A DNA stretch of 23,485 nucleotides from a virus. The notes beneath the pieces are model-generated. The model searched no databases. It was not told the DNA's origin and saw nothing but the letters and a program-made list of their open reading frames with translations. The DNA lies in the IMG/VR virus record IMGVR_UViG_3300020477_001066, positions 1 through 23,485 of that record. One strand, 5' to 3'. The position numbers and the translations under genes were made by a program. Positions 14,294 to 18,630 of this stretch are shown piece after piece (the first letter of the stretch is position 1; each line of letters starts with the position of its first letter).

Positions 14294-16049
14294 CTGGACC
14301 TCCTCCCCCTTGTAACAATAGACTTCTTATATCTGGTGGTGGACCTTGAGGAACTTGAGGTTGTCCTTGTTGCATTAATTGGTCCATCATAGCTTGTTCT
14401 GATTCTGGGACTTCTTCTTCTGCAGTATAGAATTTATCTAATACAGTCTGCATGTCATCTGGATTCTTTAATATCTGTACTAATGCCATTGTAGCTTTAG
14501 GATCTCCTTGTGTAGCTTGTACTTTCAATGTCTCAAACAATACTGTCTCTGCTTCTGACTTTGTAATTCTATTATTTATTTTCTGTAGATTTTCTAATCC
14601 ATCCATATTCTCTTGTAATGTTTGCTTATCAATTATCCCTGCTTGTAATAATTGTAAACCAGATACAATTTTAGTTGGTTCATCAAATCCTGCCATAACA
14701 CCATAAACTCTTCTTGTTTCATATTGACCATCTATATCATTTTTAGGGACATAATATTCTGCATAAGCTCTATCTTTGGCATAACCAGATATTGGTTTTC
14801 TTTTACTTCCATTAAGTACTTCATCCATTTCTAATCTTTTAGCATCTACTTCTTCTAGTGCGTTCTTTAATGACAACTGATACTCTCTAACATTCAAATC
14901 AACTGATGACATTAATTCTTGCAATCCTCTTCCTGTAACAAATGAATTAGGAGATTGTGCATCATCAGTAACTGGATAAGAAGAACCTAATCTAAGTTGC
15001 CTCTCTATCCTATCTATTTGTTGAAACATTTGGTAAGGAAGATTATTAACTGGTTTAGCAACTTGACTTCCCGGTGATAGATAGTTAATTGCAAATCTAC
15101 CTCTCTTATAAGCACCAGACTCTAGTTCTCCTACAATATTTGTTTCAGTAAATACTGCATCTTCCATAGCAATAATGGATAAAACATTTATCTTTGCCAT
15201 AGCTGCCATGAGTCCTAACACATGATCATATTGTCCTTGTAATCTATCAAAACTAAATCTCTTTGCTAGTACAAATCTAGGACCACTCTGTAATGGATTA
15301 GGTGTAAAATCTAATATTTGTTTTGTTGTAGGATAATAAACATAGGTTCCCTCTTCGTTGTAATACTCTATTAACTCTTCTCCCTCAGCAGTATTATTTT
15401 CCCAGCTTCTTGCATATTGATCTTTATATAATCCCTGAGACCATCCACCACTATATTCTCCAGTTGTATCTTGTATATCTACTTTTGCATGAGGATATAA
15501 ATTTTTAATAGTCTTTACTGGAACAATTCTAACTAAAGCTAGCTCTGTTGGTTGTTGATCTGGTCCATAGTAACCGGGGAAACAATCAAATGGATCTCTC
15601 AATTCTGCATGAGGATACATATTACCAAATCTATCTTTTTTATTTCTTATAATCCAAACTGAAAAACCATAACCCGGTAGCCATCTAGCAGCTTGTGGAA
15701 GTTGCATATCCATCTTACAACTCTTGTCATAAGCATGAACAATCCTTTCTAGCTTCTCTGATTTATTCTTAGCTCTATCTGAATCTTTATTATTAAATGG
15801 ATCAACTTTAAGATCTGGAACTCTACCTAGCTTCTGTGCTAAGTGTTCCAAACCAGAATCAATCATATTAGGTATTGGTAAATCTTCGTTATAGTTTTCT
15901 GAATTAGAACCTAATAGTGCGGCCACTCCTTGTGAACCTCCATTTAATATATTTCTAATTCTTTTCCTATAATCAAAAGATCCTGTAGATTCATGTAACC
16001 CACGAAGGTCATCAATTTTATGTGCTAACTTGTCAGCTGTATAAGCCAT
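14274..16049 (-). CDS. Portal protein, 591 aa
   Basis: I call this the portal because it directly follows the large terminase, has the usual length (450-700 aa), and has a portal-like composition: a helical N-terminus, a beta-rich stretch with many aromatic and Pro residues (DPFDCFPGYYGPDQQP near 130), a long helical segment near 335-390 and an acidic, Gln/Pro-rich C-terminal tail. Portals form the dodecameric ring through which the DNA is packaged and ejected. I chose the ATG at 16049, which overlaps the terminase stop as TAATG. A GTG at 16061 would add four residues (MGKI), but does not match the junction style of this operon. The gene ends in a GGAGGAGG-rich region that forms the ribosome binding site of the 70-aa gene. 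Confidence 0.75.
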   Translation of the reverse strand: MAYTADKLAHKIDDLRGLHESTGSFDYRKRIRNILNGGSQGVAALLGSNSENYNEDLPIPNMIDSGLEHLAQKLGRVPDLKVDPFNNKDSDRAKNKSEKLERIVHAYDKSCKMDMQLPQAARWLPGYGFSVWIIRNKKDRFGNMYPHAELRDPFDCFPGYYGPDQQPTELALVRIVPVKTIKNLYPHAKVDIQDTTGEYSGGWSQGLYKDQYARSWENNTAEGEELIEYYNEEGTYVYYPTTKQILDFTPNPLQSGPRFVLAKRFSFDRLQGQYDHVLGLMAAMAKINVLSIIAMEDAVFTETNIVGELESGAYKRGRFAINYLSPGSQVAKPVNNLPYQMFQQIDRIERQLRLGSSYPVTDDAQSPNSFVTGRGLQELMSSVDLNVREYQLSLKNALEEVDAKRLEMDEVLNGSKRKPISGYAKDRAYAEYYVPKNDIDGQYETRRVYGVMAGFDEPTKIVSGLQLLQAGIIDKQTLQENMDGLENLQKINNRITKSEAETVLFETLKVQATQGDPKATMALVQILKNPDDMQTVLDKFYTAEEEVPESEQAMMDQLMQQGQPQVPQGPPPDIRSLLLQGGGGPDVPEQL

Positions 16050-17968
16050 TATCTTTCCCACATTCTTTCATCATACGTTGTCATTTTATAATTGCTATAA
16101 CTAGGAGTATAGTCGCTGTCTACTTCTGAAAGTATGATTTTCATAGTTTGTCGTATACGCTTCATAGGAAACCATGATGCCATTACTAAGTCTGTTTTTG
16201 ATGTAGGAGACTTAGTATTTTTACTACTAGCTGCGCTAAAATATATTAACTGACTTCTGTATATATTTACTTTCCTCTGTGTAATTGGTGAGGCCCAAGG
16301 TATATTTATTTTACCCTGTTCAAATAAAGGAACCATTGATGTAACTCCAAATACTGGATCCCATTTATTCTTATAGGTTTGGTGTCCCTCTATCTTTACT
16401 CCATGACCTGCTGCCCAGTTCTTTATATCTTTATCTTGACCAATAGCTTTTTGAAATCCGTTTTCTTCTACTATCCAATGATATAGATTATATTGCTCAT
16501 ACCACTCTTTCATTACCTTATGGGCCTTTGCAATACCTCCTCCTAAATCATTCTTTATATCTACTAACCACATGTCCATAGTCTTTGCATTATATGCCCA
16601 CAAAACTGCTGCTTGGTACCCTGTAGATGCTGGGTCTAATCCAGCTATTAAAGAAGTTCGTGGAGGTATATCTCCTAGTTCTCTTGACCTATCAAGACAT
16701 TTATCTATCATCTCTGCATTAAATAATTCCATACCTTCTGGTACTGCTTTATTCAGATATACCATTTCAAAAATTGCTCTACCCCCTGTAGTCTCAGCTG
16801 CAGACAATTGTTCTAATAACCATTTATGACTTCTCTTACCTTTCCATAACATGTGATCATCTTGATCTTCTGATTCTTGGTCTAAAGGTATTTCTAAATC
16901 ATGCGCACGTTCTACTATTGTCTCCCAAGCTTCATTGTCTAATAGTGAATTATATAAATCATCTGGGTGCTGTCTTGACCCAATAACTACCATACCGGTG
17001 TGTTCCTCTTTTCTTGATTGAAGTGTTGTTGTCCACCAGTTCTTTGTATTCTCTCTAGCACTAGGTTGAACTGTAGAACCATGATCTTCTATGTCATCAG
17101 CTACTATGAGGTCTGCATCTCTTGAAAGAATTTTTCCTCCCTTACCTACAGCTACTAATGTAGGAGATTTGATTCCAGCTACTGTTCTAGTATTAACAGT
17201 AAACTGACCTGTACTCCAAGACTTCCCAGATTTATTCATAGGCCTAAAACCTTCATACCCTGCAAAGTCTTGAATCAACTGTTCATTATTTTCTAAATGA
17301 TCTAATACAGCACCTACTGCATTTTTAGCTATATCTTCATTACCCCCTACCCACATAACTCGTATATTAGGATTTTTACATATCATGTATACACAGAAGT
17401 GCGTTAGTAGGTCTGTCTTGCCGTGCCGGGGGGGTGATAGCACCATTAGTCTCTTACCATGCTTAATAGCTTCTAGGATTGCATGTATCCAACGCTTTTG
17501 AAATTCTGGGGTCTCATACTGCTCTCCTTGTTCTGTAAGGAAATATGTATCTCTAAATAATATAAAATCATCAAGTGCTGCTTTTGCTTCGGGGTTATTT
17601 TCTAATATCTTTTGATTATCTTTCAAAGCTTGGTCTTTCAAGTAAGCTGATAAAGATCTGGTAATAGTAGCTAAACTACATCCTAATATATCAGCTATCT
17701 CTTGTTTAGATTTAGAACCATTCAAAATAGAGTCAAAAAAATTTTTTTTCTCCATAATGGCATAGTATCTCCCTCTTCGTTTCTGTATATTGTGATCTAC
17801 ATCTTTCTCTATATGGTACTCAGATGCTGTTTTTTTTGCTCTGTAAGCCCTTTGTTTAATCCTCCTAGCACATTTATCAGAACAGTACTTCCTTCTACTC
17901 TTGGGTAGTATTTTCGTACAATCATTAGCTAGACAGAACTGTTTTTTTGCTTGGCTTTCTTTCTCCAT
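16049..17968 (-). CDS. terL: Large terminase subunit with N-terminal zinc finger and HTH, 639 aa
   Basis: The packaging motor ATPase/nuclease. The ATPase domain has Walker A SPPRHGKT (178-185, K184) and Walker B LIVADD (287-292). The C-terminal RNase H-like nuclease begins with IAGLDPASTG, with D445 the expected metal ligand. Unusual for TerL, residues 12-33 hold a Cys4 set (C12, C17, C29, C33) followed by a basic stretch, and residues 84-111 read as a helix-turn-helix (KQEIADILGCSLATITRSL). These could give the protein its own DNA-recognition module in place of a separate small subunit, which I do not see in the window. The ATG at 17968 has no clear Shine-Dalgarno upstream. A TATGAT sequence lies 13-18 nt before it, so a very short leader is possible. 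It is the first gene of the leftward late operon. Confidence 0.93.
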   Translation of the reverse strand: MEKESQAKKQFCLANDCTKILPKSRRKYCSDKCARRIKQRAYRAKKTASEYHIEKDVDHNIQKRRGRYYAIMEKKNFFDSILNGSKSKQEIADILGCSLATITRSLSAYLKDQALKDNQKILENNPEAKAALDDFILFRDTYFLTEQGEQYETPEFQKRWIHAILEAIKHGKRLMVLSPPRHGKTDLLTHFCVYMICKNPNIRVMWVGGNEDIAKNAVGAVLDHLENNEQLIQDFAGYEGFRPMNKSGKSWSTGQFTVNTRTVAGIKSPTLVAVGKGGKILSRDADLIVADDIEDHGSTVQPSARENTKNWWTTTLQSRKEEHTGMVVIGSRQHPDDLYNSLLDNEAWETIVERAHDLEIPLDQESEDQDDHMLWKGKRSHKWLLEQLSAAETTGGRAIFEMVYLNKAVPEGMELFNAEMIDKCLDRSRELGDIPPRTSLIAGLDPASTGYQAAVLWAYNAKTMDMWLVDIKNDLGGGIAKAHKVMKEWYEQYNLYHWIVEENGFQKAIGQDKDIKNWAAGHGVKIEGHQTYKNKWDPVFGVTSMVPLFEQGKINIPWASPITQRKVNIYRSQLIYFSAASSKNTKSPTSKTDLVMASWFPMKRIRQTMKIILSEVDSDYTPSYSNYKMTTYDERMWER

Positions 17969-18377
17969 CTGTTATAGTGTATCATACATATATTTAGTTT
18001 GAGATGGTTAAGACTACCTAACATGTGTACAAGTAAGAGTGATCGGGACACAAAAAGTCCGGGATCGGTGGCACGATAAACTAGAAAGACAAACCGGATA
18101 CTCAAGGCACTTGACTTAAACTTTATCAATAAATGGTAAATATTTTGACTCTAGCTGCAGTCATAGCCCGCTTATGCCCATTTGGGTGTAGAAATAGCAC
18201 TCCCTCCTACTACTAAGTAGCTAACTTTTACTGTAGTAAGAGGGCTTGTACTGATCTTATGATAGCAGGACAAGGGACCTTGACTGAAAATTTTAATAAA
18301 ATTTTATGACTTTTTACTAAAACCCTATAAACACTACACATTTAACATACTATATCTTGTATATACTATATATGGTA
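17969..18377. other. Non-coding stretch upstream of terL
   Basis: No ORF here has a credible start and coding character on either strand. Visible items are a short GGAC/GTCC hairpin near 18047-18061, several TTGACT-like sequences (near 18110 and 18280) without convincing -10 partners, a duplicated AAAATTTT near 18287-18305, and an AT-rich run of alternating TATA from 18345. It presumably carries the leader or promoter of the late operon, but I cannot place a promoter with confidence. Confidence 0.5.
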
Positions 18378-18393
18378 TACACTAGATGTGGTA
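18378..18393 (+). repeat. Left copy of 16-nt direct repeat flanking the tmRNA-like RNA
   Basis: TACACTAGATGTGGTA here matches TACACTAGGTGTAGTA at 18503-18518 in 14 of 16 positions, in the same orientation. The pair brackets the structured element at 18405-18497. The left copy overlaps the putative -10 region. Possible roles are protein-binding sites, integrase arm-type sites, or traces of insertion of the element. Confidence 0.6.
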
Positions 18394-18397
18394 TAGT
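18389..18397 (+). promoter_or_regulatory. Extended -10 promoter for the tmRNA-like RNA
   Basis: TGGTATAGT matches the extended -10 form (TGn plus a TATAAT-like hexamer). It ends 7 nt before the first G of the acceptor stem at 18405, which is the normal distance to a transcription start. No good -35 is visible, as is usual for extended -10 promoters. Confidence 0.45.
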
Positions 18398-18404
18398 GTC
18401 TACT

Positions 18405-18497
18405 GGGGATGATAGGTAATATATAGCTAACAAACTAAATAAAGACTACCCTTGATCACACTAGCTATACACTCCGGTTCAATTCCGGACATCTCCA
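18405..18497 (+). ncRNA. tmRNA-like (tRNA-like domain) RNA lacking the usual internal domains
   Basis: The 5' GGGGATG (18405-18411) pairs with the 3' CATCTCC (18490-18496) as a 7-bp acceptor stem with one G-U pair. A perfect T arm follows tRNA rules: TCCGG (18473-18477), loop TTCAATT, CCGGA (18485-18489). There is no regular D stem or anticodon arm with a T33-type loop. Instead TATAGCTA (18422-18429) pairs with TAGCTATA (18462-18469), in the position of helix P2 of tmRNA, after an unpaired D-loop-like segment containing AGG. GGGGxTG ends and a stemless D loop are tmRNA hallmarks, but a normal tmRNA is about 350 nt. The last bases read ACTA where tmRNA has ACCA. Alternatives are a degenerate tRNA or an attachment site copied from a host ssrA gene. 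The fold was judged by eye. Confidence 0.5.
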
Positions 18498-18502
18498 CTA
18501 AG

Positions 18503-18518
18503 TACACTAGGTGTAGTA
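18503..18518 (+). repeat. Right copy of 16-nt direct repeat flanking the tmRNA-like RNA
   Basis: This is the partner of 18378-18393 (14 of 16 identical). This copy also contains the inverted pair TACAC/GTGTA around TAG, so it could form a tiny hairpin just after the RNA. It is not followed by a T run, so it is not an obvious terminator. Confidence 0.6.
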
Positions 18519-18578: not shown

Positions 18579-18630
18579 GATTGACATTAGGGGGTTGCTA
18601 AATAACTGCCTTGAGAATTTCCCTACATGT

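Follow-up and report, generated by a model that had tools for sequence, protein, structure and literature searches.

The window analysed here is the whole 23,485-nt stretch of the viral record IMGVR_UViG_3300020477_001066. The gene for the terminase large subunit lies at 16049-17968 on the minus strand (PHROG terminase, E 1e-68), and the N-terminal start of the encoded protein (17870-17968, minus strand) contains a short Cys-rich segment, CLANDC...YCSDKC, which resembles a small zinc finger placed before the ATPase part. Divergent from this gene, in 1 kb of DNA where no gene was recognised, we located a short tmRNA-like RNA on the plus strand (18405-18497, G1 to A73), delimited by its RNAfold structure, an end-to-end match to Rfam model RF00023, and conservation and covariation in relatives. 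A -10-like hexamer, TATAGT (18392-18397, plus strand), ends 7 nt 5' of G1, and TATACT, TATAGT or TATAAT occupies positions -13 to -8 in most relatives. With this putative promoter element, transcription would begin at the mature 5' end of the RNA or immediately beside it. No match to a -35 element was found upstream of the RNA, and a promoter scan was not significant. The hexamer is embedded in dyad repeats of the type ACTAnnnnTAGT (18349-18404), which occur again directly behind the RNA (18497-18517); the same is seen in relatives, and the repeats look like operator sites or processing signals. A GGGGGTT stretch about 100 nt 3' of the RNA (18588-18597) is also retained in several relatives.

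Within the RNA, the elements of tmRNA follow one another in the tmRNA order, namely acceptor stem, D-loop without D stem, P2 and T arm, all on the plus strand. The 5' strand of the acceptor stem, GGGGATG (18405-18411), forms 7/7 pairs with CATCTCC (18490-18496), which includes U70, and the alanine identity pair is present as G3 with U70. The 10-nt D-loop (18412-18421) carries the GG of the elbow contact described below. It is followed by the P2 strands TATAGCTA (18422-18429) and TAGCTATA (18462-18469), which enclose a 32-nt loop (18430-18461) standing where the mRNA-like domain would be, and by the T arm TCCGG-TTCAATT-CCGGA (18473-18489; 5/5 pairs). A73 corresponds to 18497 and is followed by ACTA; CCA is not encoded. 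The minimum-energy structure calculated by RNAfold was the drawn fold (-21.6 kcal/mol, z -2.8), with an extra 3-bp hairpin within the loop as the sole departure, and 4 of 200 shuffles equalled this energy. The 8-bp P2 was matched by 0.9% of interior shuffles, and P2 of the window sequence alone is modest evidence. A sequence-only reading of this locus had already described the acceptor stem, T arm, 8-bp P2 and 32-nt interior, and each was recovered at these positions. Its two further remarks, that G3 lies opposite U70 and that no tRNA anticodon arm can be drawn, also held, but part of the window's own subfamily has G3-C70; an arm with a 5-bp stem and a 7-nt loop was present in control tRNAs and in none of 28 distinct sequences of the family.

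RF00023 matched the RNA end to end with 35.4 bits (E 5e-11), under the curated cut-off of 47 bits, and gave 52.6 bits on five relatives. Ordinary tRNA-Ala genes reach 35-40 bits with the same model; this score therefore cannot stand as sole proof, and the case rests on comparison with relatives. A mini-tmRNA covariance model (R1) separated a GC-rich class of similar RNAs well (66-87 bits) and gave the window 36.1 bits vs 29-33 bits for tRNA-Ala, so that the AT-rich marine family was level with or slightly above tRNA-Ala. With both models, tRNA-Ala comes close to the window's score, which would suit a degenerate or D-armless tRNA; this reading is very improbable, given that ARAGORN reported neither a tRNA nor a tmRNA, that the anticodon arm is absent throughout the 28 sequences, and that loop length varies by clade. 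The first two of these observations likewise led us to reject an ordinary or class II tRNA. Membership of the standard tmRNA family (RF00023) was rejected on the score below 47 bits and the absence of the mRNA-like domain, tag frame and pseudoknots. A permuted tmRNA (RF04321; 25.5 bits, E 0.12) was rejected as well, the upstream acceptor strand being fully paired and conserved; the weak match arises because of the GGGGGTT stretch downstream. No conserved tag frame was found across the marine family, and a very short tag of the type reported for Fermentibacterota (PMC11915505) was discarded, with a resume codon plus stop not conserved in the family.

Through the terminase large subunit, 80 relatives were found. 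Where terminase identity was at least 67%, the RNA occurred at the same place and in the same orientation in 53/53 evaluable relatives; five further ones were left out because their contigs stop before or inside the RNA. In the sister group (about 53% terminase identity), the RNA was found in 0/14 members within the searched stretch, one of the 14 having no upstream DNA. A set of 20 distinct condensed sequences kept 99.7% of its pairs and showed double changes at 10 pairs; covariation was 0.596 vs 0.195 in shuffles, all three helices covaried, and slid versions of the helices paired at only 44-62%. The acceptor stem (P1) was fully paired in all 20, with double changes at 2 pairs, the T stem had double changes at 3 pairs, and the outer 5 pairs of P2 were all doubly changed in the family. 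Because the P2 register was picked per sequence for maximal pairing, the percentages for P2 have an upward bias built in. Double changes that separate close relatives are free of it, and they include TATAGCTA/TAGCTATA in the window vs TAAAGCTA/TAGCTTTA in its nearest relatives (T-A here vs A-T there) and AGTTA/TAACT vs AGTTG/CAACT within the family. Interior length varies by clade, giving cores of 76 to 106 nt. G3-U70 is present in 17/20 distinct relatives and G3-C70 in 3/20. In at least five relatives, the apical loop retains a pyrimidine-rich motif (TTATCCAA, TTGTTCCAA, TTGTCCCAA or TTTTCCC), which is less clear in the window.

The D-loop and the T-loop also change together at the elbow. A D-loop GG occurs with a T-loop TTC (16 sequences) and AG with TGC (12 sequences), accounting for 28/28 distinct family sequences, and the rule holds in 230/232 sequences overall. 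On the terminase tree, a joint switch is forced at least two times, and three is the simplest count. This covariation corresponds to the tRNA contact 18-55 and is direct comparative evidence for an L-shaped RNA. Because of the pairing and covariation in the 20 relatives and the missing anticodon arm in the 28 sequences, chance and tRNA are excluded, and the comparison shows that the predicted RNA is held at a fixed place by selection. We are highly confident that the RNA is, in structure and kinship, a tmRNA of which just the tRNA-like domain (TLD) is left.

Phage integration into ssrA occurs, and some Gordonia phages have 3' fragments next to an integrase. Two readings are nonetheless extremely improbable at this locus, a leftover of host ssrA, which the sequence-only reading had suggested, and an attachment site, which it had named as a refuting outcome: all evaluable relatives keep both ends and P2 with compensatory changes, and the longest exact match was 10 nt among 37 tmRNA and tRNA loci, 33 of them from the putative host family. 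An integrase family was sought among the proteins tested and none was found. Both were dropped. The loss of P1 and P2 pairing that the sequence-only reading had named as a refutation is not seen either: relatives retaining the flanking terminase gene also retain P1, P2 and the T stem, with compensatory changes.

The closest isolate homologs of the terminase, capsid and exonuclease are mostly in actinobacterial phages. Terminase relatives (51-55% identity) also occur in a 1.1-Mb genome that shares its class with an Acidimicrobiales MAG and belongs to a family whose genomes measure 0.6-1.1 Mb. One 1.1-Mb Acidimicrobiia genome contains at least three such relatives at 51-55%, probably co-binned or infecting phages, and no TLD-only RNA was reported there. 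Genomes of Ca. Actinomarinales measure about 0.9-1.1 Mb (PMC7771536), and we infer that the candidate host family matches this group in size and class. The host is thus probably a marine, Ca. Actinomarinales-like member of the Acidimicrobiia; a second actinobacterial class yielded only distant terminase homologs. The candidate host family has a normal one-piece tmRNA with the tag AKPKLA(I/L/V)AA; most phage relatives have precisely the acceptor of this tmRNA, GGGGGTG/CACCTCC. The window acceptor, GGGGATG/CATCTCC, is that of a tRNA-Ala(UGC) from the same family.

The pattern GGTTTCGAC-N(16-46)-GGACNNNGGTTCRANTCC, which places no constraint on the acceptor, was used to search for a wider class. 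In viral contigs, the matches listed comprise at least dozens of different phage RNAs of this kind, most of them 73-80 nt long. In 84,980 species genomes, the same pattern gave 11 loci: five were convincing (66-87 bits with R1), three resembled, on inspection by eye, a permuted cyanobacterial tmRNA native to the host, and a further three fitted poorly. Three of the five convincing loci adjoin phage head, terminase or phage-type glycosyltransferase genes. Across 56 aligned phage RNAs, pairing was 97.4% and covariation 0.825 vs 0.154. Pair 3-70 was G-U in 60/60 complete stems among the matches listed; pairs 4-69, 5-68 and 6-67 vary with compensation. RF00023 matched all of 36 records of the wider class and exceeded its cut-off in 25, nearly all with RNAs of about 80 nt, and many such RNAs may for this reason be annotated as ordinary tmRNA; some low-scoring records among the 36 hold tRNA-Leu genes instead. 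At least dozens of distinct GC-rich RNAs from unrelated phages have a small hairpin within P2 (consensus AARCCGCAYGCGGA), which the marine family lacks. SmpB (PF01668) was found in 0/50 carrier records, many of which are fragments.

The matches in isolate phages were mostly complete tmRNAs or pieces from the 3' end, and a single one, in Vibrio phage D239 (OZ196063), is likely TLD-only. This phage is a possible laboratory system; its RNA of about 67 nt (1171-1239 of the examined locus) is unannotated, lies within a tRNA cluster and has the T-loop CTCGACT. In a Synechococcus phage, a match to the first 35 nt of the RNA lacked a T arm and was dismissed as chance. The genome of Microvirga lenta has a tmRNA-like sequence of 87 nt in duplicate (one copy at 2190-2277 of the examined locus; 39.8 bits with R1). 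A 340,433-base jumbo phage record contains a full-length tmRNA (tag ANDNGALPLRLAA) together with a short non-tRNA hit classed as TLD-only. Tentatively, and with slightly less than even confidence, we propose that TLD-only tmRNAs form a widespread, dedicated phage class that would be charged with alanine and act on the ribosome with host SmpB, either as an RNA-only shut-off of trans-translation or by adding untemplated alanine to stalled chains; in GC-rich members, the inner hairpin AARCCGCAYGCGGA might be a functional stand-in for the mRNA-like domain.

The structure and family of the window RNA are well supported; its function we infer. G3-U70 is read by AlaRS, the acceptor and T stem by EF-Tu, and the D-loop/T-loop elbow by SmpB; these are the tmRNA parts kept here, and the tag frame and pseudoknots are the parts lost. 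Our preferred reading, with a probability of roughly 0.55, is that the RNA is a competitor of host tmRNA and blocks trans-translation. As a free-standing TLD without the tag-coding and pseudoknot part, it would use the AlaRS, EF-Tu and SmpB of the host; host SmpB would be needed, since the 50 carrier records lack an SmpB gene. Trans-translation would be damped during infection, because an RNA without a reading frame could neither tag a protein nor end translation. According to two later articles, an RNA resembling the TLD-only one of mycobacteriophage DS6A strongly inhibits tmRNA in E. coli, charged or not, perhaps by titration of SmpB (PMC4131195, PMC11915505; originally Mao et al, 2009). Besides this reported inhibition by a similar RNA, we count in favour of a competitor the conservation in 53/53 relatives, the covariation of helices and elbow, the missing anticodon arm and tag frame, the wider-class pairing of 97.4% with G3-U70 in 60/60 stems among the matches listed and covarying neighbouring pairs, and the identity of the candidate-host tmRNA acceptor with that of most relatives. 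Counted against it are the window's RF00023 score, which does not exceed that of tRNA-Ala, and the replacement of G3-U70 by G3-C70 in part of the window's subfamily, where charging cannot be needed. The suggestion made from the sequence alone had likewise been a minimal phage RNA of the tmRNA type that might serve as a decoy for AlaRS, SmpB or EF-Tu, and this is now the best-supported reading.

The main rival, which we hold possible but unlikely, is that the alanine-charged RNA and host SmpB enter ribosomes stalled on broken mRNA and take over the nascent chain, after which other host factors clear the complex and phage proteins escape the degradation tag. Such tagless rescue would account for the strict G3-U70 of the wider class, a feature superfluous for an RNA that did no more than soak up SmpB, and a tag-less mitochondrial tmRNA is retained alongside SmpB (PMC11915505). 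The RNA offers no stop codon to end translation, however, and the effect reported for a similar RNA (PMC4131195) is inhibition. The G3-C70 pair in part of the window's subfamily also speaks against rescue and is more readily reconciled with a decoy. Another tRNA-like role, as an AlaRS or EF-Tu sink, a stability tag, a replication primer or a packaging RNA by the terminase gene, is unlikely. The fixed site adjoining that gene and the acceptor shared with a candidate-host tRNA-Ala(UGC) point towards it, but the wider class occurs in phages of widely differing size with no one gene tied to it, and none of these roles requires the tmRNA-type D-loop and P2 that are retained. For the competitor reading, in turn, the co-occurrence of a full-length tmRNA and a TLD-like RNA in one 340-kb record sits badly with simple sabotage.

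TLD-only tmRNAs were already on record for one phage (DS6A), for mitochondria and for certain plastids. The open-access literature searched gave no description of a phage family that spans a lineage, of how broad the class is, or of the alternative elbow pair; where that literature offered a single phage case, a marine phage lineage is now seen under clear selection to keep such an RNA. If these RNAs block or bend trans-translation, they would amount to a phage attack on ribosome rescue by means of RNA, and the reason why host tmRNA matters to phages would become testable. The phage TLD-only RNAs also provide a natural set of minimal AlaRS/SmpB substrates. The TLD-only tmRNA of DS6A (tmID 11587; Mao et al, 2009, as cited in PMC4131195 and PMC11915505) resembles the window RNA, by description rather than by sequence, in being a phage gene with little beyond the tRNA-like domain and no tag frame; it comes from a single phage, whereas a whole marine lineage is involved here. 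The standard one-piece tmRNA (RF00023) shares the G3-U70 acceptor, the D-loop without D stem, P2 and the T arm in the same order, but measures about 340-380 nt vs 93 nt here, where the mRNA-like domain and pseudoknots are missing. Mitochondrial tmRNAs (RF02544) and the CDS-less plastid tmRNAs of Mallomonadaceae are likewise short and without a tag frame (PMC11915505), but they are organellar rather than phage genes, and the mitochondrial ones are mostly permuted. The two-piece tmRNA of phage Melnitz (PMC9004378) is also a marine-phage tmRNA gene; it has a tag-coding piece and a permuted order, whereas in the window RNA the 5' strand of the acceptor precedes the 3' strand and is perfectly paired.
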